Source of the DNA: Chrysoperla carnea
Lineage: Eukaryota; Arthropoda; Insecta; Neuroptera; Chrysopidae
NCBI RefSeq assembly: GCF_905475395.1
Contig: NC_058337.1
Span: 103,348,368-103,412,367, forward strand
Length of the DNA stretch: 64,000 nt
Reading direction: 5' to 3'
This document shows, in pieces, positions 30,355 to 64,000 of this stretch. Made by a program: the position numbers and the translations under genes. A model generated the notes under the pieces. That model saw only the letters and a program-made list of their open reading frames with translations. It made no database searches and was not told the DNA's origin. Position 1 is the first letter of the stretch. Each line of letters begins with the position of its first letter.

Positions 30355-31140
30355 TAGTTATTTCTCTTCAACTACAACATCGGTTGAGTAACCATTAAAA
30401 ACTGCAACGTTTTTAATGTATTTTAATTCCTTAAGATAAGAGGATCTAGAAAGTGGAATATTTATTAATCTATTTATGTGACAATAAGAATCTGATGTAA
30501 TGTATCTCTCAGTATGAGTCGCTTTTCTAAGTAATATCAAAATCGAATTTGTTTTTATAACGAGAAATTAATAGGTCTAAAAATGATAAAGTACCATTCA
30601 ACTCAAAGTCAATTGTGAAAATTTCATGTTCGCCGTTGATGGGTTCCATAAATTCCGATATATTTAATTTAGAACTGACACAAACGGTGAGAACATCGTT
30701 AACGTATCGATACCAAACTTTTGGGAAATTTTATTATATTTATCCTTTAGTTTAATTTCTAATTGGCTCATGAATAAATTGGCTAGAAAAGGTGGTAGTA
30801 GGTTGCCCATAGAAGTACCTTGAGTCTGTTTGTAATAGGCCCCTTTGAAAACAAAAAGATTTTCCTCATATAAAGTCGTATCAACGGCAAATATTCCATG
30901 ATGATTTTGACACCACTCTCCATGAGCCAAATTTGATTTAAAGTCAAGAAGATTTAAAGTCATTTCAATTGGGATACTGGGATATAGAACAAGGACGTCA
31001 AAAGAAATGAGCCTATCTTGGAGTTCTAAAACAACATCCTTAACATTGTCTATACTAACACCAAAATTGTTTTTAATCGAGAAACTTTTTGGTGCGCGCA
31101 GATTATTAAATTCCGAAACAAGCCTTTAACAATTTTAAAG
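30355..31140 (-). pseudogene. Penelope-like reverse transcriptase fragment
   Basis: Reverse-strand translation shows Penelope-type reverse transcriptase landmarks in order: SFDVLVLYPSIPIEM, then YYKQTQGTSMGN followed by PFLANLFMSQLE, then VWYRYVNDVLTVC (catalytic box YVND at 30694-30705), then GTLSFLDLLISR and a C-terminal ATHTERYI... block. A frameshift lies near 30725 between the GTSMGN block and the YVND block, and a stop follows near 30540. The GIY-YIG endonuclease expected after the reverse transcriptase in many Penelope elements is not visible, so the copy is broken at both ends. The Asn in place of the first Asp of YVDD would also impair it. Confidence 0.82.
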
Positions 31141-41634: not shown

Positions 41635-43292
41635 ATGGCCGATATAGAGGATTTTCGTTCAAATTATCAAAATAAATTTTTGCACTTTTTTTTGTTTATT
41701 TGTTTTTTTAACATGGAGAAAGCCCTGGATATTAATATTAGTGATATATTTTATCTACTTGGTGGATCAGTAAGGCCGTTGATGGAAGGAGAGGCGCTTT
41801 CTCGTTCCAAAAACTTGTTTCTCGTTGGAACCAATCGAAGCAAAATAATTGTTTATTAATCAAATCTTCATGTTTACAAACATCAAACATCACAGAGAAA
41901 CCTCATGAGATCCAAATCAAAGTGTTTGTAGCCAATGAAAACAAAAAAATCGAATGCTATTGTTCTTGCAAAGCGGGCGCGGGAAGCAAGTGTAAGCATG
42001 TTTTTGCGACATTGTTGTTTGTGAACCGGTAAGTTTGTTAATAAAAATAATTTCAAAATATGTATTTTTCATAGTATTTTAATCGAAGTTGCTTTAAAAT
42101 GCCTTTTTTCGTGAAAGTTGATTTATACATACATATGATGATTATAAAAGTTCAATTTTTGCAGAAAAGGCGTTGAAAATTTGCAGAATTTAAGTTGCAC
42201 AGATGTGAAACAACAATGGGGTCAATGCCGCAAAGAAGCAGTGGCTTGTATAACCGAAGGAACACCCTTGGATCAGTTGTGCCACAGCAAACAAATTTCT
42301 TTCGATGATATCAATTTGAGCGAAGATTTGAAGAAAAATTTTTTCTCACTTTGGGTTGAGAGTAAATTAAATTTTTATTTATATCGTAACAATTAGAATT
42401 TTTTTAAAGTTTATCACAAAAATGTTTTTTGATTATAATCCTTTTTTTAGGTTTGACCGACAGCGAAGCATCGATACATTTTGCTCAGGAGAGAAAAACT
42501 ATGGCTGTTGTTGAATCAGAAAGGAACAACAATCAGCTGTTGCTTATCAACAAGATTTTTGAAGTATCACTTCCTGTGCACCCTGAACTTTTAACTGAAA
42601 TGGGCCGAGAAAATAACTTTTATTTACAAACAGTTGTAGTCACCAAAGAAGAAGCGATTAAAATTTGTATCTTAACAAGTCAACAACAAAATGATCTCTG
42701 GCGGCAAGCGAGGAAATGTCGAATCACTGGAAGTGTTTGTTACGAGCTTTTCACGTATACGAGAAACAAAAAACCTGATTGGAATGGAAAAGTACGAAAA
42801 GTTTTTTTCAGTGATTTTTTTGGAAATGCTGATACAAACCACGGTGTACAAAATGAAGGTGAGGCAAAAAGGAAATACGAAGAAGATTATGGAGCATCAG
42901 TAACAGAAATTGGTCTCGTAATTCGCGAACAAATCCCTTGGCTTGGTTACAGTCCCGATGGCATTTTCAATGACGTTCTAATCGAAGTAAAATGCCCTGT
43001 TGCTGGAAAAAAAATGAGTGCCGCAGAAGTAGTGCTACAAATGACTTGTTTCAAGACTGATGAGAACAACATTTTAGAATTTAAGAAAAACCACAAGTAT
43101 TATGCACAAGTTCAACTGGGCATGTTTCTTTTGAATTTGAAAAAGTGTCATTTCATTGTTTATGCTACATATGATAAATCAATCATGGTATTCGAAATAG
43201 ATTACGATAACACTTATATTTTGCGGTTGATTTCAAGTTTAAAAAACGCATACTTTCGTTACATGTTGCCTGAGATTTCACAAAATTATTAG
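41635..43292 (+). pseudogene. SWIM-YqaJ companion protein, frameshifted
   Basis: Three exons: 41635-42028, 42165-42361 and 42451-43292 (joints AACCG/gtaagt, ttgcag/AAAAGG, GAGA/gtaaat, tttag/GTTTG), with phases that agree. Exon 1 carries a SWIM zinc motif, CYCSCKAG...CKH. Exon 3 carries a YqaJ-type exonuclease domain of the lambda-exonuclease fold: RITGS, then HGVQNEGEA, then YSPDG...LIEVKCP with the metal-binding Asp and Glu-x-Lys, then YYAQVQLGMFL. Within exon 1 the frame stops at 41857-41859 (TTTATTAATC), and the SWIM part continues in another frame. One missing base there restores continuity, so this copy is broken or has a sequence error. The true start may be ATG at 41713. In ISL2EU elements this protein accompanies the transposase; its exact role in transposition is not settled. 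Confidence 0.85.
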
Positions 43293-43595
43293 TAGAGGCG
43301 TGATAATGGTCTGTATTTTAATAAGTATTAATGTTATATTATTATTATTAAGTGACACTTGTGATTTTATTCCAAATAAGTGCAAGAATAAGGTGATTAT
43401 TTAAATGCAAACAAATTTGTGATATTTAAGACTTAAGATATTTTTATTCTACTGTTGATTGGTACAAAATATATGATTACAAAACTTATTCCATGTTAAT
43501 ATTTAACAAATGTTTATAATTAAAAAGACAGAAAATGTATGCGAAATTGTTGGCCAAAGATGATAATAAATTACATTTGCAAGCACAATTGGTTT

Positions 43596-45262
43596 TTAAA
43601 ATTTATCAGGACCTAAAATCGGTGTACTTAAATTAACAATACCAGAAAGTACAACCATAATACAATCCATATAAGGAATTAGAGGTCGAGGAATTGGACC
43701 CTTTAAAATGTTGAAAATTTTGAGTCTTTGAATTGTTCGTTCGACGTGAACTCGTGCCGCAGCAATCAGCGCTGTGTTTTGAGTTTCGGTAGCAGAAAAT
43801 TGTTGTTTTTCTTTTCTAAAAAATGGTGGTCGGATCAACTTAACTCCGTATTGAGCACACTCGTTTGCGATCAGAAATCCTTTGTCTACCATGATAGCAT
43901 CATTAGGATTCATTTTTTCTAACAATTTTGATCGAACAACAATTTGTTTATCCGACGCTCTTCCACCGAAACCCTTACTTATAAAACTTATCATTCCAGA
44001 AGGAGTCACCCCAACAAGATACTTAACAGTATGTCGTCCTTTATAATTTGAATACGTGGCTAATCTGCAAGTTAAACACTCCGTACTTTGAGTGGAAACC
44101 TCTGTACAATCCAAAACAACTCTTGTGCTTCTAAATTTTGAAAAACACTTTGGCATGTTATTTAAAATTTCTTCTTTAGATGGCCAGTATACAACGACTG
44201 AAAGCGCGCTCGCCAACAATTTCAATGTTAATTTCATGCAATTTTTCGCGGTGTTCGCTGTAATATCAAAAAACGAAGACACAATTTCAAACGTTGTTTT
44301 TTGTTTTAACATTATGAACGTTAGCAAGACTCGATTTTTAACAGACAGTTTACATTTTTTTGAGTAATTTTCTTGAGTTGCCAACACTTTTGAAACACAT
44401 AAAACGATTGTTTCTAAAAGTTTGAACGATCGAATACCAGTAAGTGCATTCAACTTCTTTTCATTAGATTTGATTATTAAGTCGATTGGCAGTAAAACCT
44501 CTTTTTCAATTGCCATGGGAGTTACTTGGACAGATTTTTCGAGCTTTAATATATCACTTTTCGCAGTTGTATTTTGTTCGGCAAAAGAGTCTTCATGGAC
44601 GGAAGAATTTTGTTCGACGATTTTTTCAACGACGAAATCTCGGTTTCGAACATCCTTTCCTTCTGCAATGTCAGGCTGCCCCTCCTTTGAATCGTCAGTT
44701 ATTGACACTGAATCTTGCACTTCCATCGGAACAGGCACAGCGATACTAAAACAATTCAACTTTATATTGACGTCAATCACTTAATGATTTTTATAATAAT
44801 ACCCAGTTTTTAATTACCTTTCTACTTTTTCCTCTGCTCGTTTTTTCGCTCTTGCTTTTCGTTCAATCACTTGCTTTTGATCACGACGAATTTCTGTCAG
44901 TAACGTCACTGGCAAGTTTTGTGTCGGTACAGCAATGCTCTTTAACCTCCTCCTCTGGCTGTGCTCATCTAAACATTTCATAAAAATATTTACTTTTGTA
45001 ATATCAATAATTAAATTATCTATTCAACAAACAATAGTATGCTAAAAAACATTTATCACTTACCAAAGAAAAAAAAATCATCGTTTTTGAAGTGTGCATT
45101 ACAAACAAGTATGCTCGACTTAAATACTTTCAATTTCAAGTTTTGTATCCACTTTAACCTTAACTTTTCGCATTTTGGAAAATTATGAAAACTGACGCCT
45201 GTAGATCTTGTTTTCCCACACTGGGGAACACCACAACGTTTTTCATTTTTGATAATTTCCAT
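43596..45262 (-). CDS. THAP-DDE transposase (ISL2EU type)
   Basis: Three exons on the reverse strand, 45064-45262, 44818-44968 and 43596-44745, join in phases 1 and 2 to about 499 residues. Exon 1 is a THAP zinc finger (CGVPQC ... CNAHF, C2CH), the DNA-binding part. Exon 2 holds SIAVPTQNLP, the AVPTF box that closes a THAP domain, then a basic helix. Exon 3 is a DDE domain of the HARBI1/IS5-like type: RVVLDCTEV (first Asp), DAIMVDKGF (second Asp), HVERTIQRLK (Glu). No stop or frameshift is seen, so it may be recently active. An upstream in-frame ATG at 45382 lies outside the transposon, in Helitron DNA; I chose MEIIKNEKRC at 45262, inside the element and just before the THAP cysteines. Confidence 0.88.
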
Positions 45263-45463
45263 CTCAACAACAAAAACATTCACACTTGTGTAGCTGTCAA
45301 AATCCTCTATAATAGTTTCACTAGTCCTCGCTGCGCGGCGCCACCGTATCTTGCGATCGCCAATATTGCTGTACAGTTTCATTAAAAACCATTCGCTAGT
45401 TTAAGTTTGAAAGCGTAATAAACAAACAAACATGCTTACTTTCGCATTCATAATATATAGAGA

Positions 45464-51074: not shown

Positions 51075-51340
51075 ACCAAATTGACCTATATTGCTCATTT
51101 ACGAACTCGACCTCACTTTTTACGTCTTGAGTACGCTATAAAAATTTCATCTTGATATCTCTTTTCGTTTTTGAGTTATCGTGTTGGCAGACAGACGGAC
51201 AGACAACCGAAAATGGACTAATTAAGTGATTCTATGAACACCTATAACCAAAATTTTGTTCGTAGCATCAATATTTTTAAACGTTACAAACTTGAGACTA
51301 AACTTAATATACCATGTATATTTCATATATACATGGTATA
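51075..51340 (+). repeat. R1 dispersed repeat, 3' half
   Basis: From TTGCTCATTTACGAACTCGA through the GGAC/GACAGAC tract and GAAAATGGACTAATTAAGTG to a well-preserved terminal hairpin ending TACATGGTATA. It is preceded by a short tandem repeat of TTCTACTTAAACACGTAATT (51026-51072). Confidence 0.85.
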
Positions 51341-51869
51341 ATTAGAGAATATTCCATAGTAGTAATAACATAGAATCGTAATGTGGCCATCCAAACGGTT
51401 GATCGTTATAGAGAGAGACCTAAAAAAAGTACGCGTATAGCTGCCTTCGGTCTCTTTTTAGCGGTCAATAATTCACTTATTGCGTTTCCTATATAACCTC
51501 TTTGGTTAAGTATGCTTTACCAATTTCTTAGTGGTGCAATTTTTATCAATTTTCAACTTGAAACTTGATAAAAATTGCACCAACACTGGCGGGTTTTGGA
51601 AAAATTAATCTGGCAACACTGGTTTCAAGCTATTTAATTTGTTGTCATAATAATATAGATCTGTGAAGTTTTAATCATATGAATCAGGATCTTCTAAAAT
51701 CATATAGGTCTGTGATTTTTGAATAACGACTAACGAGCAAGTTATGTCAATTAGTTTTGACTTAATAAGGCCACATTATAATAGGTTAATGTAACAATTT
51801 TTGACAACAAAAATTTTGAATTATATAAAATATTAAGATAATTGTTTTTATTTTAATTTGGGTCACATT
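51341..51869. other. Upstream region of the THAP-ZAD gene
   Basis: Unique-looking sequence with no repeat I recognise. The 5' part of the THAP-ZAD transcript and its promoter should lie here, but I see no decisive promoter element. Confidence 0.35.
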
Positions 51870-54800
51870 ATGCCGTTAAAGTATCAATGTTGTGTGCCAA
51901 TGTGCAATTCTTCAAAGAAAGTAAATAGCCATATAAGTTTTCATAAATTTCCAAGTGATAATGAAGCAATAAAAATAGGTGGTAAAATGATTAACAGAAG
52001 GCAACTTTGGATAGAAAATCTGAAACTTTCCAATATAAATGTACGTACCAGAGTATGTTCTCTTCATTTTAAAGAAAGTGATTTTTTCAAAGGTATTAAT
52101 TGTAACATAAATTATTTGTACTTACATTATGATTATATAAAAAATATTTATTATTTTAGCGGCAAACAAAAAAACTAAAAGTCTTTTTTTAAAAAGAATT
52201 GCAATACCATCAATTAACAATGAAAAATCAGAATATCCAACACATCCTTCCTGTATTCCATCTATGTTTCCCAAGGATGAAATCAATAAGAATGTAATAA
52301 ATGAAACACAAACAACAGAAATGGTTGATTTCAATAATATCGATCTTAATAAAGTATGTGAAGATCCAACGCGATCTTCCTATATTCCATCTATTTTACA
52401 CGTCGATGAAATCAATAAGAATGCAAGAAATGAAATACGAACAACAGAAATGGTTGATTTCAAGAATATTAATTATGATCGAGTATGTAGGGGTTGTTTA
52501 TCACAAGATGATAACTTAAAATCAATGAATGAATCAATAGAAGATGATGTACATGATAATAATATTCTATTATCTGATATGTTTATGGATTGTACTTCAA
52601 TTCGGGTAAGTTCAATGGCCAGAATAAGAAGGCAAAGCTATTGTGACCAAAAAGCATTAGTAAATTAATTTTTGATGGGTGACCTTTGCACCATCTCATG
52701 TTTTATTTTTTGTAAGCAGGAATTCAGCAGAAATAGTAGGAGAGCTGGTAGACATTTTTGGGTATCTGTTCTAATGCAAAAATGTAGATCTGGCTGGAGC
52801 ATAGCGGTATCGAACCCCTATATAATCAAACATATAAAATTTGTGTTCCCAAAAGAGTCTTTGAGCCAACTTGTCATTTTTTAAAAAGTAAACCTAAATA
52901 CTGAAAAATGAAGAAAAGAAACAAACCAGGTCATTTGCGAGGGAATAAACCTTTGTAATAAATACAAAAAAATACAGGTGATCAAGAAAATTACAAGCAA
53001 AGTAGTTTTGCAAGTATCTTGCAGGATTAAAATTCCCCGCAATGGCCTCGCTTGTTTATTTTGTCACCCCACTCTCGGGCTTAAACGTCATTGTCGTATG
53101 TTACAAGTTGAATTAAGTAATGATTTAATATTCAATAAAATGAGTAAAAAACGATTGAGTCGAAATTGTAGTGTTGTTAATAGACCTTTTTCATGAAAAA
53201 CAGAAATTCTTTTTGTTAATTTTTTTATGAAAATATAGGTCGAATAAAGCCTGTAACTCGAAAATTGCGCATTTTTAACAATAAAAAGACTATAAAAAAA
53301 ATTGTAAAAAAGTCACAATATTTGAAATATTTTAAAACGATTTTTTTTTTGTTCCACCGCACACGTGATCTGTGATGTCAATCCGACAAGCAATGACAAT
53401 AAAACAGTGTCAACAGGCGTATTAATATATCACTGTTATCAACTTTAAATGACGTCAAATCAACATTCGTGTAACATCGTGTGTTTCCGGATCGTTTTCG
53501 CCAATTTGAATTTTAATGATTTTCATTGTCTGTTTTCTCGGTCATATGGCTCCAAAAAAATCGGGGAAAAAAATTAGCCCATTTTTCAAGACATTTACTT
53601 TTATTCAAAAAAAAGAAAAAGAAATGTGAAAAAGGTCTATTGTGCACAGTAATAATCTAAAATTGCAATTTTACCATTTTCCTGGATATTCTTATTAATT
53701 GGAGAGAGAAAAAAAGTGGGTTATAGCAATAAGGTTACGTAAAGTTAATTTTTACGTCTCCAATCATCATTTAGTTTATGTAAATTATTATAATAACCCC
53801 TGTTCATAAAATAAAACACGAGATGTCGTTCTACTTTACTAGCGTATATCATAATTAATAACTTACTCCCCCGAATTGTTATTATTATCAGATATGAGAC
53901 AATGAATACTGATGATGATTTCTAATAGAACTACGTTTTCATAATTTTATTTAGAAATTGACGTACAATAAAATATCACAATTCAAATAAAATAGATTGG
54001 AATTACTTGTTTTAGATTGACGATAATGATAATTTACCGAAACAAATTTGCGATTTTTGTGTATCCCAAATTAATCAATTATATTTATTTAAAAAAAACT
54101 GTCAACGAATTGATGAATCATTACGATATAATTATGAACAACATAAAAAGTTATTCAATGATAATGATTATATTATTAATAATGATGATTTATCATCATC
54201 ATCATTATATTCATCACAAAGAAATGTTGAACTTTACGATAATGATAACATTGATAAGAATGTAAATAAGGATGATGTTGCTTATTTTATAAAGAATGAA
54301 TTATCAAATATAGAAGAAGTCATGATAAAACAAGAAGACCTTAATATTGATAAGAGTAGTGACGAAGAAGATAAAAATGACAATGGTGAAGTCGAATTAA
54401 ATACTGATAAATGGTAAGTACAAATATTGTCGCCACCTGGTAGTCAAATTAAAACTAATCAAAATGGGTTACGGTTATAACTTTTATTTACGAATATTTT
54501 TATTTATGTTCGTTTTTCTTTACTAAAAAAAAATTCAGTATAAAGATGGAAAATACAGAAGATACCTTGGGCACACGATTCCCTCCAAAACAAAATAAAA
54601 GCAAAGCATTTTGTTGTGTTTATGGTTGCGGGAGCAGAGCTTGGAGAAATCCAGACGTTCGATTTCATAAATTCCCCAAAGAAAATGTATGTTTTGTAAA
54701 AGTAACAAACTCTTTGGGAGTAGAAGAAAAAATCGATTGTAGACATATGTGGCAAAGAGTTTTGAAGATCGAAAAAAATATTACAGAACACATGCTAGTT

Positions 54801-57406
54801 TGCTCCTTGCATTTCAGAAAATCAGATTATTTCTTACCAGGTAATTAATTATAATTATCTTTCAGTTTAAAAATTAATATATTTGAAAATAAATTCAAAA
54901 CATTATTTTGTTATGCAGATTTAGATTCTAAAAACAAAAGATGTTTGAAAAAAAATTCAGTACCTTCTAGCAATCTACCGGGCGATGATTACAAAACAGG
55001 ATATGATGTTAAAACTATGTAATTCCAAATTTAATTTAATAAATGAATAAATTTTAACCATTTTTGAAGTGTTTCTTGAAAAATTGAACATATTTTTTAC
55101 AGAGAGGGTGGCTACTTTCGTACAAAAGAAGTTATGATAAAACAAGAAAATTGTAATATTGATAAGACTAATGAAGAAGACAATGAAAATGAAAATGGTG
55201 AAGTCGAATTAAATACTCATAAGCGAGCCTCCACAAGTAGTACAATCAAATTTGATAAATGGTAAGTACAAGTATTGCCAGCTGGTAGGCTAAATTGGAA
55301 CTAATCAAAACAGGGCAGCTGTTATAAGTGTATTATATTTGGTAGTAAAAAGTTAAACTTTTAATTGTGATTATTTTAATTTTTTTCTTTTTTCTCAATT
55401 CAGTATAACGATCGAAAATACAGAAGACACTTTTGGCACAAGATTCCCTTCAAAACAAAATAAAAGCAAAGCATTTTGTTGTGTTCCTGGATGCAGGAGT
55501 AAAGCTTGTAGAAATCCAGACGTTCGTTTTCATAGATTCCCCAAAGAAAATGTATGTTTTGTGAAAGTTAGAAACTGTTTTGGTGTAGAGGAAAAAATCG
55601 ACTGTAGAAAAATGTGGCAAAGAGTTTTGAAGATCGAAAAAAATATTACAGAATACATGCTAGTTTGTTCTTTGCATTTTAGTAAAGCAGATTATTTCTT
55701 ACCAGGTAATTAATTTTATTTATCTTTTAGCTTAAAAATTAATACCCAGTGTTGAATTTAAGACGAAGACACTCTCACATTTAAGTTATTTATAAGAATA
55801 TCGATATTAATTTGAATTTTTGCTCAGCCACACAGGGTGATGGGTCGTATGTTTTAAGATACTTAAACGAAATCTGAACTTAAAACTCAGCCCACTACAA
55901 ACTGACAAATAGAGCAAATTCTTAATATTTTCCCTAGCGTCAGAGAAGGTTAGAGATATCGAAAAAAAAAATTATTAGAAAAAGTTGCTTAGAATATTTG
56001 TATATACCCATATATTGATTTTTATGAAAAAATTCGCAGTTTTAATTCTTTCATTATTTTGGTCTAAACTATTAAAAATTCATTGAAATGTTTGAATACA
56101 TAACAGTAATAAATTCAATCATTTTGTTCAGTTTTTACATATCAATATGATATCTGGTAATTACAAGTATTTCCATCTGGTAGTCTAAATTGGAACTACC
56201 GACTAACGGTCAGCTGTTATAAGTGTATTATGTTTTGTATGAAAAAACTAACTTGTATTTACGATTATTTTTATTTTTGTACGTTTTTCTGAAACAAAAA
56301 AATTCAGTATAACGATGGAAAATACAAAAGACACTTTGGGTAAACCATTTTGTTGTGTTTATGGATGCAGCAGTAAGGCTATGAGAAATCCAGATGTTAG
56401 GTTTTACAGATTTTCCAAAAAAAATGTATGTTTTGTGAAAATTACAAATTTTTTTGGAGTAGGGGGTAAAATCGACTGTAGGAAATGTGGCAAAGAGTTT
56501 TGAGGATCAAGAAAAAAATTACAGAATATATGCAGGTTTTTTCTTTGCACTTTAGAAGATTAGATTATTTCTTACCTGGTTACTACTATTACTATTGTCA
56601 GGTTACTTACTATTATACTTATTTTTCAGCTTAAAAATTAATATATTATTTTGAGAGTAAATTAAAACATTTGGTAATTTTTTATGCAGATTTGAATTCT
56701 AAACGCCTAAGACGTTTGAAAAAAAATGCAGTTCCTTCTTGCAATCTACCTGGTTGAGAAAAAAAAACAGTATCAATGGATATTAAAAATAATGATAGAG
56801 TCAAGAAGATTACAACGATAAAAGAGTAGAAATGAAGTGCTTGCAGCTAATCTATCTACTCATAATCAAAAACCGGATATTTAAATTAACCCAACTACTA
56901 TTAATTTTACTGATGAATTTCATGGTCAAAAAAAATTTAAATATTTTGGATTACGAACTTTTAAAGGAAAATACTGAAATATTAAAAAAAAAACATTAAT
57001 CGATGTTGGCATTCAGGTCAAAAGTGGAGATTTGCTGACTGATTTTTGTGATATAATAAAAACTGAAAAAGAATTAATACATTAACCGGAATCGTATATT
57101 TTGATATTTAAATACAATTATGGATGTTGTTTAAGATGGATTTCCAAAATATGAATACGATAGAATGCATCTTCGAAGTGTGACCCATCACCCTGTATGA
57201 TTGTGCAAAATTTCAAACCGATGTTCCTATAAATAACGAAAATATGAGGGTGTTTTCACCTTAAATGTGACAAACCGTATATTTGAAAATAAATTCAAAG
57301 ATTATTTTGTTATGCAGATTTAGAATCTAAAAACAAAAGAAGTTTGAAAAAGATGATAAAAAAACAGAATATGTTTATAAAACTATGTATTCCAAGTTTT
57401 AATTAA
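51870..57406 (+). CDS. THAP-ZAD-THAP multi-domain protein
   Basis: Exons 51870-52092, 52160-52605, 54016-54413 and 54539-54840, then either a terminal exon to TAA at 55022 (490 residues) or onward 54919-55018, 55103-55261, 55404-55705 and 57318-57406 (672 residues). All phases agree. Domain order: THAP (CCVPMC ... CSLHF, AVPTF-like RIAIPSI in exon 2); ZAD (CRGC in exon 2, CDFC in exon 3); acidic linker with VMIKQE; second THAP (CCVYGC ... CSLHF, then LKKNSVPSSNLP); an acidic repeat of the linker (VMIKQEN); third THAP (CCVPGC ... CSLHF). No C2H2 finger follows. THAP domains bind DNA and ZAD dimerises, so a multi-contact nuclear factor is inferred. Exons 54539-54840 and 55404-55705 are the same length and clearly duplicates. 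The third THAP lacks its AVPTF box. Splicing is inferred only. Confidence 0.75.
52252..52497 (+). repeat. 129-bp in-frame duplication in THAP-ZAD exon 2
   Basis: Units starting at 52252 and 52381 both encode IPS...DEINKN...EIVDF-like sequence (EMVDFNNIDLNKVC and EMVDFKNINYDRVC). The first ends in VCED instead of the zinc-binding VCRGC, so it is a truncated ZAD start placed before the true one. The 43-codon period keeps the frame open. Confidence 0.75.
52708..52875 (-). repeat. Possible tRNA-derived SINE
   Basis: On the reverse strand TTGGCTCAAAGACTC resembles a pol III A box, and GGTTCGATACC about 45 bases later resembles a B box, followed by less AT-rich unique-looking sequence (TCTACCAGCTCTCCTACTAT). 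It lies in the second intron of the THAP-ZAD gene. No flanking duplication or tail could be confirmed. Confidence 0.3.
53179..53641. mobile_element. MITE in a THAP-ZAD intron
   Basis: Inverted ends AATAGACCTTTTTCA at 53179 and TGAAAAAGGTCTATT at 53627-53641. 463 bp, non-coding, in the intron before exon 54016. Target duplication is not clear. Confidence 0.65.
55011..55051 (+). promoter_or_regulatory. Stop codon, splice donor and poly(A) cluster
   Basis: AAACTATGTAATTCC offers either ATG-TAA (stop at 55020-55022) or a splice at AT/gtaatt. The donor joins in frame to AGAGGGTGG at 55103. Two AATAAA words follow at 55038 and 55046. The exon can therefore serve as a terminal exon with polyadenylation or as an internal exon, and the same words recur after 57404. 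Confidence 0.55.
56308..56755 (+). pseudogene. Decayed THAP exon and linker exon inside the insertion
   Basis: After an AATTCAG acceptor, ATG at 56315 starts a third copy of the duplicated THAP exon (CCVYGCSSKAMRNPDV...). Ten codons are missing before the first cysteines, a one-base deletion at about 56483 shifts the frame to a stop at 56501, and the donor GTAATT is now GTTACT. A linker-exon copy at 56688 has two extra bases and stops at 56708-56710. The preceding intron (GTAATTACAAGTATTTCCAT and GCTGTTATAAGTGTATTATG) is closest to that before exon 55404. Not functional. Confidence 0.8.
56990..57086 (+). pseudogene. Possible coding remnant in the insertion
   Basis: One frame reads LIDVGIQVKSGDLLTDF and on to a TAA at about 57086. 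A DVGIQV-type motif is common in the region after the THAP domain of THAP proteins, but 30 codons are too few to assign. A neighbouring frame (GRTFKGKY-like) ends at a TGA near 56975. Confidence 0.3.
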
Positions 57407-58095
57407 ATAAATGAATAAATTTTAACATTTTGAAGTGTTTATTGAAAATTGAAAATATTTTTTACAGACTGGGTGGTTACTTTCGTACAAATTTTATTCT
57501 TGTTTCTCTTTTTTACATATATGTCACATTTCTTTAAGAAATATTAATTTCAGAGATTCAAATAAGTTTTCTAAAAAACATTTTAAGTTAAATTGTTATC
57601 TTTAGGATTTAATTTAACATAAGTTATATGAAAAATTATTTCGTTTATACTACGAGTTTTTTCTCCATATGGAGATTGTATTTCTATCAAGTGGTACATC
57701 ATTTTCTTATACCATCAGGGGAACAACGAAGCCAAGGATAAATTGTCTTTTGAAATTACAAGTCTGCATTGAAATACATTAGCCGATTTACTCCTCATTT
57801 TAAAGTTTATCATGCCGGATAATGACGAAAAATAGTCCGACGATCTAAAAATCCGTACTGGAGAATTCGACCGAACAGGTCGACTAGTATAGTAGGATTA
57901 CATATATGAACGCTGCTAAGTTTGTTTCAAGATCGAGTCGTCATATTTAATTCGAATCTAAATGTTTTTAACAAAAAAATCCAAACACTAGCGCTACTGC
58001 CGTAGTATGGAGTGTAGAATAAAGGAGCACAATCTCTATGTTAAAAAAGTGGTCCCCAAAAGCCTTATTTAAGATTGAGTTGCTGTACCAGATAC
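57407..58095. other. Spacer between THAP-ZAD and ZAD gene 3
   Basis: It opens with AATAAA words at 57406 and 57414 and a truncated copy of the GGYFRT exon start at 57468-57500 (TTACAG/ACTGGGTGGTTACTTTCG), so the tandem duplication extends this far. 58006-58066 is the left end of the hAT-type MITE at 46207. No other gene seen. Confidence 0.6.
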
Positions 58096-58337
58096 AATAG
58101 GGAATATTCATGAAGTGTAAATTATACATTGAACTGTCAAAAATTGACAGATCACGTACTTATACATCATCAACAGAGAGCGCCAAAAAACTGCGTTTAA
58201 ATATCTCAAAATTATAATGTATTTTAAATTACCATTTTTTTTACACTTAAATACAGCATTTATATTTTTACTTTGTTATAACGGTGTAAACAATCAATTA
58301 AAAATATTTTCAAAAAAATACATGAATATTCCCTATT
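58096..58337 (+). mobile_element. MITE with intact inverted ends
   Basis: AATAGGGAATATTCATG at the left and CATGAATATTCCCTATT at the right, about 242 bp, and the reverse of the element in the gene 2 intron at 47237-47466. If the ends are taken as GGGAATATTC, the flanking TA would be the target duplication. Confidence 0.8.
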
Positions 58338-58674
58338 ACTGTCCATACAGTTAAGTTCAGATCACAGAGGTTATATGTAACATAGAGCACTGACCGTTAA
58401 AAAAGGTACCGTAAAATATGACCCTCGTGGTTAATGGACGCTCCCAGAATACTTAAGATACCTATAAAATATAATACAAATTTTTATTATTATGGGAGTT
58501 AGCATGAAAGTACTTTAGTTGACAGTTAATATGTCAAACGCTGGATACATTTCATATTATGCATTGCTGATTGCAGGATTTGAATACCTCCTTTTATATT
58601 ATCCTACCACTATCCAGTGTATCTGTATTCAGATCAGTGATATTCAAAAAATATAACACTATTCAATCAGTGTT

Positions 58675-58698
58675 ATGTCAGTTGTTAAAAATGGATGA
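58675..58698 (+). promoter_or_regulatory. Short conserved upstream ORF over the start
   Basis: MSVVKNG-stop from ATG 58675, overlapping the main ATG at 58691. It is preceded by CAATCAGTG, which with TCAGTT downstream offers two initiator-like words. Confidence 0.35.
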
Positions 58699-60981
58699 AA
58701 AGAATGCGATAAATGAAACACAAACAATAGAAATGATTGACTTAATGAATATTGATTATAATCAAGTATGTAGAGGCTGTTTATCACAAGATGATGATTT
58801 AAAACCAATGCATGCACAATTAGAAGATAATATACATGATAATCTGATATTATCAGATATGTTTATGGAGTGTACTTCAATACTGGTAAGTTCACATAAA
58901 GTAAAATTATAATTTTTTCAAAATTGTATCAAATCATTTTTGTATTTATATCTTAACGCTCCGTTGTATACTTACTCAGATAATTCATACTGATGATAAC
59001 TATCTTGTAATCAAAACGTCCATTGAAAATATAAATTAACTAATTAGAATAACTTGTTTTACATTAATGATAATGATAATTTACACTTATTTACTTAATC
59101 AAATTTTCCATAATTTACCCATCATTTTAAAACTTAACGTGTTGTCTAATGATGATAAATAGACTCACTGTCTAAAAATGTACTGCTTAGAAAAAAACAA
59201 GGCTAGAGAAATAATAGTAAGATATAATTTTATTCATTTTGTAAGTTGTATATCATATCTGTAATAAAATTGCCTATAAATAAAAAGATAGTAAATTGTC
59301 CCTTATTTATTGTTTTTCTGGCTTTTTTTAGCCACGGATACCGGATTGCAGAGATCGGTACCGGTCGATATTATTTTAATTACATAAAGTAGCGTCAAGT
59401 TGCTTGCCTTTTCGGAGTATAATAAATAGATACCATTAGATATTCCAAACTGATAATAACTACTTTTTGTTTTAACGCATTTTGATTTTGAAATTATATT
59501 ACAATTATTATTCGATAATTAAATAGAATTTCTTATTTTAGATTAATGATAATGATAATTTACCGAAACAATTTTGTGATAATTGTATATTTCAAATTAA
59601 TCAATCATATGTGTTCAGAAAAAACTGTCAACGAATTGATGAATCATTACGATTGTATGAACAACATAATAAATTATTTAACGATAATAGAAATATTATT
59701 AATAATGATGAATTATCATTATCATCATTATCAACAACAACACAAACAAAGCTCGAGCTTATAAACGATAATGATAACATTGATGAGACTGTAAATAATG
59801 ATGATGATGATGAAGAGGAAGATGATGATAATGTTGATGATGATATAATAAAGAAAGAATTATCAGCTAACGACGAAATATCAATAAAACAAGAAGACGA
59901 CATTAAAAATGAAAATGATAAACGTAAATATAAATGTGATGAATGTTCAAAAATGTTTATAACATCAAGTCATTTACGTTCGCATCAATTAATCCATACA
60001 AATGAACGACCATATATATGTACGGTTTGCGGTAAGGGCTTTAATTCAAAACCAAATTTAAAACGTCATAATATGATACATACAGGGGAACGTCCGTATA
60101 AATGTAATATATGTTCAAAATCATTTATACAACAAGTTACATTAAATGATCATAAACGTGTTCATACAAATGAAACACCCTATATATGTAAAATATGTTC
60201 ATCCGAATCAAATAATCCAACAAATATTACATTTGCATTTAAACAATCGGGTGAATTACGTCGACATATTAAAAAATATCATGAAACACAACAACAAAAT
60301 AATGAAAAAAAAATTAAAGTAAAAAATAAAATTTTATTAAAATTAAAAAAGAGTAAAATGAAAAATGATAATAATAAAAAAGCATATTTATGTTGTAATT
60401 GTGGAAAATCATTTACATCGAATACATTATTAGATATACATATGAGAATACATACGGGAGAAAAACCATATAATTGTATGGAATGTAATAAATCATTTTC
60501 ACAGATTAGTACATTAAAAACACATCAATTAATACATACAAATCATAAACAATATGAATGTGATTATTGTAAGAAATTATTTCGACATCGTATTGCTTTA
60601 AAACAACATATTTTAATACATATGGGTATTAAAAAATATAATTGTACATATTGTAATAAACATTTTACACAATCATCACAATTAAATTATCATCTACGGA
60701 CACATACCGGTGAAAAACCATATCAATGTTATATTTGTTTTAAAACGTTTGCGTTAAAAGGTAATTTAACTGTACATGAACGTATTCATACTGGAATTAC
60801 GCCATATGTATGTTCAGTATGTTTAAAAGGTTTCTACGATTCATCTAGTTTAAAGAAACATCAAAAACTTAAACATCATCAAGTGTTAAATAATAATACA
60901 AACGATAATATTAATACTGATATCATTGATAATGCTAATATAATTATTAAAAGTGATAATGATAAAGAAAATACTAATTAA
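58691..60981 (+). CDS. ZAD-C2H2 zinc-finger protein, gene 3
   Basis: Exons 58691-58885 and 59542-60981, phase 0 (ATACTG/gtaagt ... ttttag/ATTAAT), give about 544 residues. ZAD ligands CRGC and CDNC are present. The linker is strongly acidic (long Asp/Glu/Asn runs) and holds ISIKQED, a sumoylation-type motif. Ten fingers follow: three canonical; a fourth (CKICSSES...HIKKYH) with about ten extra residues between the cysteines and the helix; a basic Lys/Asn spacer; then six canonical, ending HQKLKH. The last six align one-to-one with those of gene 2. Its codons are more A/T-biased and its tail diverges (IIIKSDNDKENTN). A nuclear regulator is inferred. AATAAA follows at 61029. Confidence 0.9.
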
Positions 60982-62506: not shown

Positions 62507-63073
62507 GGTATTCTAAATAACCAAGTCAGTTGAATTTGACATTTGTTTATGAAAAGTGACTACAATTTTAATGCCCTCTATTATTTTTATAGCTCTATGA
62601 TACCATATATTTTGTTACAAAAAGATGACTGTACATAAATTATATACATATACATATACGCCATATACATTACATACATATAGCTATGTAGTACACATAA
62701 CACATGTAAAAATAAATACGGTTTGAAACGTAATTAAAAAAAAAAAATTAATATTTGATCCGTAATTAACAGTTTACGTTTCGATTATAGTTTATAATTT
62801 ATAGTTGATATAATTGGTGTGACCTATCTATAATATAAAGATAATCATAGAAAATATATAATAAAATACATAAATAATAACAAACGAACGTAAGTAGAAA
62901 CAAATAGAATAGGTATTTTATCTATGACATAATTTTTATTATTTTTGATTGTTTTTTAAATTTAAAAATTATTTACTCATATAGTTAAATATAATGAATA
63001 ATTATTATATGGATTATTTATTTAAAAAAATGTTATTTTTATTAAATACAGATACAGATACGGGATACAAGTA
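62507..63073. other. AT-rich upstream region of a ZAD gene
   Basis: Low-complexity sequence with TACATATA repeats near 62640-62700. The last bases before 63074 include TACAGATACAGATACGGG, which could contain a 3' splice site for a non-coding first exon. Confidence 0.4.
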
Positions 63074-63226
63074 ATGGCATATCAAAAATTACAAGTATCA
63101 ATATTAAATTTTAAAGAGATATGTAGAACATGTTCGTGTCGCGGTGAACTAATACCCATATTCGAAGAGACTGGACAAGATTATAATATTAAAGATTTAT
63201 TATCGCAGGTTTCAGAGGATGTTGAG
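63074..63226 (+). CDS. ZAD gene, first coding exon, partial
   Basis: ATG at 63074 opens 51 codons with a ZAD N-terminal half: EICRTCSCRGELIPIFEE, with CRTC as the first zinc-ligand pair, then YNIKDLLSQVSEDVE. A donor GAG/gtaatc at 63227 in phase 0 lies at the same domain position as the intron in the three ZAD-C2H2 genes. The sequence is not close to the clustered paralogues, so this is an older family member. The second half of ZAD and any fingers are not visible before 64000 and should lie beyond the window. Confidence 0.7.
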
Positions 63227-64000
63227 GTAATCAATGGTTTATATAAAATATACATAACCTTGTTTATGAGTAGTCCGCTAAATTATAAACAGATAAAACC
63301 ATGGAAAAATAATTTTAAATGTTGAATGATGAGTATTGCCAACAACCCTGTTTTTATAATCAACCGACAACTTTTAACTTTTTGATATCGTAAAACTTCT
63401 AAGTTTTCTATTAGTATAAACTAAATTTATTTGAAATGTCTGTGGAAATCACTTTATAAAAACGAGTAAATGGCTTGAAATAAATATTTTTTGTTGTTGA
63501 TTAAAACAATAGATTTTGGTATATACAGGCTACTTAAACAATTAATCACTCTAATTTTTAAATATATTTTTTGTTATTGAAAGTACGTTTAAATTTGTTG
63601 AACCACCTGTATATTAAGCCAATGTTACACAAATAGGTATTTGAAGCGTTATCATGGAAACGAATGTGTCAATAAACACAAAATTAAACATTGCCCCCTC
63701 CCCCTCTCTTCAATAATCTGTCGTGTACATTAATACGATAATTGTCCGTTATCGATTTCAATGTATCTTTCGTTAAAATTCTAAAATAAAAATTAAAATC
63801 AATTGATAAACATGAAAGAAGCAATTAAATAACTGTATCCATCTTTTTATTGCAATCCAATTTTGATATGGAGCCTCTATGGCAGTCGCAAGCTATGACG
63901 TCATCACGTGCTATTTTCGTCTCTTTATATTTGTACATTTGAATCCTTCATATTTTCGTAGTTTTTTATGTTACATTTTGTAACGTTTTTAATATGTCTT
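63227..64000. other. Intron and edge of window
   Basis: Probably intron of the ZAD gene that starts at 63074. An X-box-like GTTATCATGGAAAC lies at 63648-63661. No acceptor followed by a ZAD second half (D-x-LP...CxxC) is seen. Confidence 0.4.

Follow-up and report, generated by a model that had tools for sequence, protein, structure and literature searches.

The window analysed here, a stretch of 64,000 nucleotides from chromosome 1 (103.348-103.412 Mb) of the lacewing Chrysoperla carnea, contains what we read, on balance, as a chimeric host gene, predicted to combine a member of a tandem ZAD-C2H2 cluster with THAP exons of two families of ISL2EU-type transposons. Five exons on the forward strand, within positions 51870-55022, join into one open frame of 490 codons plus a stop codon (Table 1), with introns that are all GT-AG and exon exit phases of 1, 0, 2, and 1. 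The predicted 490-residue product has the order THAP (THAP-a), ZAD, acidic linker, and THAP (THAP-b), and AATAAA occurs at 55038 and 55046, behind exon 5. An initial annotation of this DNA had proposed the exon joins 52092/52160, 52605/54016, and 54413/54539, all of which prove to be GT-AG with compatible phases (1, 0, and 2, respectively); a fourth join beyond these three, 54840/54919 (phase 1), leads to the stop codon at 55020-55022.

Table 1. Predicted exons of the fusion gene, its tandem copies, and the features with which they were compared (window positions, except in the last row, which gives positions within loci).
Feature	Position	Strand	Remarks
Exon 1	51870..52092	+	Start codon and most of THAP-a; GT donor at 52093, phase 1
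Exon 2	52160..52605	+	End of THAP-a, spacer, ZAD N-half; single open exon
Exon 3	54016..54413	+	ZAD C-half and acidic linker
Exon 4	54539..54840	+	Second THAP, copy 1 (THAP-b1)
Exon 5	54919..55022	+	End of THAP-b; stop codon at 55020-55022
Duplicated linker exon, open	55105..55261	+	ATG/GTAAGT donor as in exon 3
THAP-b copy 2, open, phase-compatible	55404..55705	+	Pfam THAP 2.2e-08
Third unit: frameshifted THAP-b copy, then transposase remnant	56309..57177	+	Remnant at 56988-57177
Family-A homologous stretch: 5' flank, exon 1, intron 1, start of exon 2	51783..52240	+	blastn and multiple alignment
Closest cluster paralogue, ZAD-C2H2 gene with 9 finger motifs	58691..60981	+	Comparison gene
Other two ZAD-C2H2 genes in the window	ZAD exons near 38.9/39.7 and 46.9/47.7 kb	+	Cluster comparison
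ISL2EU-type element between two ZAD-cluster genes	41745..45400	both	SWIM and YqaJ frames on +; DDE_Tnp_4/HTH and THAP on -
Short THAP elements or parts	L010 3809-4659; L044 1493-2210; L045 1360-1775	same as ZAD	One THAP exon, upstream of ZAD genes

The Pfam THAP model matches the 490-residue product in two stretches (8.6e-25, 87.8 bits against a cut-off of 23.9; best stretch residues 7-94), and zf-AD matches it once (residues 183-260, 3.3e-12, 46.9 bits against a cut-off of 28), which bears out the earlier proposal of THAP, ZAD, acidic linker, and THAP in a single open frame. The gene had also been annotated as having no C2H2 fingers. Indeed, a scan with the regular expression C-x2-4-C-x12-H-x3-5-H gives 0 matches on both strands of 51870-58650, whereas the neighbouring finger exon (59542-60981) has 9 on its + strand by the same scan. 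Rfam gave no match within the window.

The window holds three same-strand ZAD-C2H2 genes, with ZAD exons near 38.9, 46.9, and 58.7 kb. The ZAD of the fusion gene is closest to that of the gene at 58.7-61.0 kb, with 65% identity in the N-half and 77% in the C-half, in agreement with its initial description as a clear paralogue of the neighbouring genes. The cysteine pairs of the ZAD are present in the fusion frame as the CxxC pairs CRGC and CDFC, and the domain matches the solved ZADs 7pok (8.5e-04) and 6fp5 (3.6e-03). We also observe that intron 2 sits inside the ZAD, as in the neighbouring ZAD-C2H2 genes, and that its GTAAGTTCA donor is identical to, and its acceptor resembles, those of two of the three paralogues, the donor of the third having been missed by the pattern.

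Exon 3 has its homologue in residues 1-134 of the neighbour's finger exon (59542-60981), where the first C2H2 match occupies residues 130-152; the homology to the ZAD-C2H2 neighbour is, by this alignment, at an end at the first finger. On the 5' side, visible homology starts at the start codon of the neighbour, a codon that is lost in the fusion gene, its place being taken by AAG in one copy of a repeat and by GTC in the other. The two copies belong to an in-frame 129-nt tandem duplication in exon 2 (52219-52347 and 52348-52476) containing the THAP-ZAD join, and because the join is contained in it, in frame, the fusion is older than the duplication. No intron separates the tail of THAP-a from the N-half of the ZAD, and this half of the fusion therefore needs no splice.

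A promoter common to the ZAD paralogues was considered and rejected: the region upstream of the fusion gene gave a single 80-nt match (75%), at 51256-51333, to the region upstream of the 46.9-kb gene, lying within a dispersed repeat, and its other matches to the ZAD paralogues were short and weak. The dispersed repeat at 51073-51341 matches at least 17 fetched loci at up to 91%, and another, at 53176-53643 inside intron 2, matches two loci (L016 and L020) at 89-93%. On the far side of the cluster, 63026-63325 (+) resembles a first exon belonging to another, more distant ZAD gene (EICRTCSC...).

The 5' part of the fusion gene was compared with the rest of the genome (559,487,470 bases searched). 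By blastn, 51783-52159 is 79.7% identical over 384 nt to a locus at C6:10.416 Mb (L041/L032), 82-83% in two pieces to L035, 80.6% over 268 nt to L033, 79.6% over 235 nt to L036, and 70% over 343 nt to L040. A multiple alignment spans intron 1 and its splice sites in L041 and L035, and the homology begins at about 51783, within a longer stretch common to the copies. L041 is a dead THAP-transposase copy, with a DDE_Tnp_4 frame behind the THAP (5.7e-08). A search with THAP-a gave at least 50 matches, 5 of them in the window (104 candidates scored), and the best non-window matches listed have 67%, 54%, and 63% identity, the last over 46 residues. A DDE_Tnp_4 match lies within 3 kb in 2 of the 10 best non-window relatives; the other 8, for which this search gave no such match, may be fragments. 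These comparisons support the derivation of THAP-a from an ISL2EU-type transposon, which we call family A. The donor of intron 1 is weak, 16.6% of GT sites being as good or better, and we count this against the chimeric-gene reading.

The second THAP points to another source. A search with THAP-b gave at least 61 matches, 6 of them in the window (86 candidates scored), and the best non-window matches listed have 65% and 67% identity. THAP-b1 is 67% identical to the THAP at C6:2875326 in L042 (C6:2.875 Mb), which is followed by DDE_Tnp_4 frames (6.8e-07 and 1.3e-11), with HTH_Tnp_4 below the cut-off only, and by YqaJ on the opposite strand (5.5e-16); DDE_Tnp_4 occurs within 3 kb in 2 of the 10 best non-window relatives. 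Most autonomous ISL2EU elements are described as having a two-frame plan, a THAP-HTH-DDE frame and a YqaJ frame (PMC4482050), and the same plan is seen at L042 and at 41745-45400 in the window. A derivation of THAP-b from an ISL2EU-type transposon of a distinct family, B, is thus supported at the level of sequence. The initial annotation had the finger array replaced by transposon-type DNA-binding domains, a claim that fits the 80% DNA identity of the first THAP exon with its intron and 5' flank, and the 67% identity of THAP-b, to ISL2EU-type copies. The dimerising factor with a new specificity that it derived from this replacement is more tentative.

The element at 41745-45400 gives Pfam matches to SWIM (2.3e-04), YqaJ (1.9e-10), DDE_Tnp_4 (9.4e-40), HTH_Tnp_4 (1.5e-06), and THAP (6.7e-11). 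Its THAP has 35% identity to THAP-a and THAP-b and belongs to a family different from both; a related piece (92% over 24 residues) occurs in L020, near ZAD genes at C2:87.33 Mb. Two further observations concern sequences outside these families. An open frame of 153 residues at 30664-31125 (minus strand) resembles, by eye, a reverse-transcriptase fragment, and a locus near the end of chromosome 1 (G000:C1:138886126-138887466, L029) has a full-length COX1 match that is stop-free under the standard code, unlike a mitochondrial-like piece with TGA codons at C2:59.569 Mb, and is perhaps of bacterial (endosymbiont) origin.

We rejected the possibility that one THAP arose from the other by duplication within the gene, since each resembles its own transposon family more closely than it does the other THAP. 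A tree of 17 THAPs agrees weakly with the two groups (support 81-84/94; 1 of 14 inner branches starred). A structure model of the THAP-b exon, made from an alignment of 6 sequences, has a mean pLDDT of 74.2 (the best of five, the others 47-61) and a pTM of 0.57, and a Foldseek search of the PDB with it gave 0 matches at E <= 0.001. Beside a THAP-b relative, L043 carries on the minus strand (1925-2986) a second THAP, 43% identical to THAP-b, and then an open frame of 230 residues containing IKEE-like acidic repeats, which may represent a further host gene derived from a transposon THAP.

THAP-b lies in a block of three tandem units, in which the 3' part of the ZAD linker heads copies 1 and 2. 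The initial annotation had allowed for one or two further THAP domains, and this latitude is justified: copy 2 is open and phase-compatible, either directly from exon 3 or after exon 4 via the linker exon 55105-55261 (632 residues), and a next exon near 56690 would close its frame, while the third copy is frameshifted. The originally proposed end point of the gene, 57406, includes this decayed third unit and the transposase remnant. The remnant is 67% identical over 192 nt (6.7e-19) to positions 1348-1539 of L042 and matches the transposase frame by tblastn at 1.8e-05, shuffled queries giving no match. A full THAP-HTH-DDE transposase frame is absent from the fusion gene, the remnant behind the third copy being all that was found of it.

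Transposon sequence flanks the ZAD on both sides, as would be expected of a transposon that had captured a ZAD as its own gene. We consider such a capture highly improbable, since the two flanks come from different families, about 190 nt of transposase matches are left, and two YqaJ queries found no match in 51500-58700. Moreover, the ZAD part stands in order within the same-strand ZAD cluster, and no near-identical second copy is among the matches listed, the best having 67% identity for THAP-a (104 scored) and 67% for THAP-b (86 scored). The fusion gene likewise differs from ISL2EU elements in having neither a DDE domain nor a YqaJ frame.

Counterparts in relatives are found for intron 1 (family A), intron 2 (the ZAD family), and the donor of intron 4, placed as in L042. 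Intron 3, which leads from the linker to THAP-b, is the sole intron with no counterpart in any relative, and this we also count against the chimeric-gene reading. Its donor fits the splice consensus as well as the top 0.9% of the window's GT sites, and its acceptor has 3 of 12 pyrimidines in copy 1 and 10 of 12 in copy 2. If exon 3 were left unspliced, the frame would stop at 54415-54417, immediately behind the donor, and the DNA could then hold two units, a THAP-ZAD gene that carries a single THAP and ends at this stop and, downstream of it, an independent family-B relic consisting of THAP only. The weak copy 1 acceptor and the missing counterpart of intron 3 suit such a division, as do an in-frame ATG in copy 1 near the element's own start position and the existence, elsewhere in the genome, of THAP elements that adjoin ZAD genes unfused. 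We nevertheless regard it as unlikely, since the duplicated block holds linker, GTAAGT donor, intron, acceptor, and THAP together, with open frames, and indels between copies 1 and 2 avoid its exons (the 125-nt intron has six, the linker a single one of 36 nt, and the 302-nt THAP exon none). In addition, copy 2 has kept its THAP frame even though its ATG has become ATC, and THAP-b copy 1 shows signs of constraint.

These signs come from the changes specific to each lineage. In THAP-b copy 1, 11 synonymous and 7 replacement changes are private to the lineage (p < 0.001, with a neutral synonymous share of 0.18-0.24 in these counts), and it looks constrained on this basis. The own changes of copy 2 are 1 synonymous and 7 replacement; copy 3 has 15 synonymous and 19 replacement changes and a frameshift, and so shows a synonymous excess despite the frameshift. 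Between copies 1 and 2, dN is 0.078 and dS 0.299, a ratio of 0.26. In exon 1, THAP-a has 4 synonymous and 12 replacement changes, and purifying selection on it, tested through these counts and through flank and intron rates, was not found, because the rate in exon 1 (16 of 215 sites changed) is not below that in the flank (4 of 87) and intron (3 of 62). The fusion ZAD has 6 synonymous and 17 replacement changes, compared with 4/4, 3/2, and 4/5 in its paralogues. The first THAP and the ZAD thus appear to evolve near-neutrally.

The near-neutral counts of THAP-a and the ZAD, the frameshift in the third THAP unit, and the many dead THAP copies in the genome would all suit a dead or dying chimera, that is, transposon debris round duplicated ZAD exons that is open mainly through its youth. 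We think this quite unlikely, given that the 490 codons are stop-free: in neutral simulations, run without indels, 0.2% of 1500 trials at a divergence of 0.074 substitutions per site left the whole coding sequence without a stop; exon 1, taken by itself, remained open by chance in 44% of 2000 trials. The indels of exons 2 and 3 relative to the nearest paralogue also preserve the frame, being multiples of three or adjacent pairs that together make up such a multiple, and the constraint on THAP-b copy 1 is a further argument for a functional frame. Overall, we read the evidence, which is mixed, as a frame that is retained while some of its parts change fast, with relaxed selection as the alternative; some ZAD-ZNF genes have been reported to be fast-changing (PMC7655104).

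Elsewhere in the genome, THAP matches lie near ZAD matches more often than by uniform placement, a weak null: of 182 THAP matches listed outside the window, 9 are no more than 5 kb from a listed ZAD match, against an expectation of 0.36, and none of 2000 shuffles reached this number. These 182 comprise the merged rows of the general THAP and THAP-b searches minus the window, one small-contig row, and three second-piece rows, with THAP-a relatives left out. As controls, none of the 142 kinase matches listed and none of the 72 DDE_Tnp_4 matches listed (excluding the window row) are as close. Three of the nine pairs come from one region (C1:124.09-124.16 Mb), and the two members are on opposite strands in six, L011 among them, and on the same strand in three, which were read for fusion. 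None of these three was retained as a fusion: L009 (C2:29.23 Mb) has a separate THAP gene that ends, by eye, in its own stop codon; L010 (C1:102.55 Mb) has another open frame between the THAP and the ZAD, and a ZAD exon with its own ATG; and L044 (C2:77.58 Mb) has a damaged THAP in a short element, next to a ZAD with its own ATG. Further fusions may exist, since 150 of 484 ZAD candidates and 150 of 246 THAP candidates were scored.

The short THAP elements at L010 and L044 are bounded by GGATCTGACA inverted ends that lie 0.7-0.85 kb from each other, and a single end of this type occurs at L045 (C1:103.52 Mb), where a THAP lies about 450 nt from a ZAD exon, as seen in open reading frames only, outside the listed matches. 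If ZAD genes have a supply of THAP exons next to them, fusions of this kind would form more easily.

The combination of THAP and ZAD has precedents. Two THAP-bearing ZAD-ZNF proteins, CG6689 and CG10431, have been described in Drosophila melanogaster, as only distantly related (PMC9810180). Like the lacewing gene, they belong to an expanded, clustered family of ZAD proteins and carry a THAP in addition. In CG6689 this THAP is N-terminal, the first two exons encoding it (PMC9810180), just as THAP-a occupies exon 1 and the start of exon 2. The CG6689-type feature, a THAP at the N-terminus that shares an open frame with a ZAD, is present in the lacewing DNA. Nevertheless, CG6689 and CG10431 should keep their C2H2 fingers, because they are classed as ZAD-ZNF proteins, whereas the lacewing gene has none and both of its THAPs are traced to transposons; in the passages of PMC9810180 that describe the two fly proteins, neither a C-terminal THAP nor a transposon source is mentioned. 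The common ZAD, the intron inside it, and the acidic linker are shared with the insect ZAD-ZNF family (PMC7655104, PMC9810180), from which the lacewing gene differs by its lack of fingers. The initial annotation did not know the architecture from described genes. Such genes do exist for the union of THAP and ZAD (CG6689 and CG10431; PMC9810180); for the form without fingers and with a THAP at each end, searches of the open-licence literature of PubMed Central found none. What is new is thus the finger-less form with two transposon captures, the THAP-ZAD fusion itself being already known. A similar logic is found in KRABINER (Cosby et al. 2021, as cited in PMC12062965), in which a host regulatory or oligomerising domain is likewise combined with a transposon DNA-binding domain; in the lacewing genome, too, domains of these two kinds share a reading frame. 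In contrast to KRABINER, the lacewing gene has an insect ZAD in place of KRAB and two captures from two families, and is predicted from DNA.

We propose that a ZAD gene of the cluster would have lost everything from the first finger onward, with a family-B element supplying THAP exons instead, and that a family-A fragment would have joined at the start codon of the ZAD gene, these two steps having occurred in either order. With the family-A fragment joined at this position, the 5' flank, the start codon, intron 1, and the first THAP would now be transposon sequence. The exon 2 join and the linker-THAP block would each have been tandemly duplicated afterwards. ZADs can drive dimerisation and nuclear localisation (PMC9810180). 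In the putative protein, which presupposes splicing across intron 3, the ZAD would dimerise and present transposon-type THAPs on both sides, giving a dimer with up to four THAP modules, whose ancestors presumably bound transposon ends. Such a multivalent binder would recognise ISL2EU-type ends, their relics, or similar host sites, and would, as its simplest function, regulate or repress them with no transposase of its own. We tentatively, and with considerable doubt, extend this to a self-targeting regulator, in which the THAPs of ZAD dimers would sit on ISL2EU ends and relics genome-wide, silencing or rewiring them.

The gene offers a view, at the DNA level, of the exchange of DNA-binding modules, with both source families still recognisable in the same genome and with steps that can be read: the join at the ZAD start codon, the point of finger loss, and the later tandem duplications. 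If true, the self-targeting reading would make it an insect counterpart of the KRAB-transposase fusions, with a target code taken from the enemy itself. If the gene is transcribed, it would allow a direct test of whether a transposase DNA-binding domain, combined with an oligomerising host domain, turns against its own transposons.
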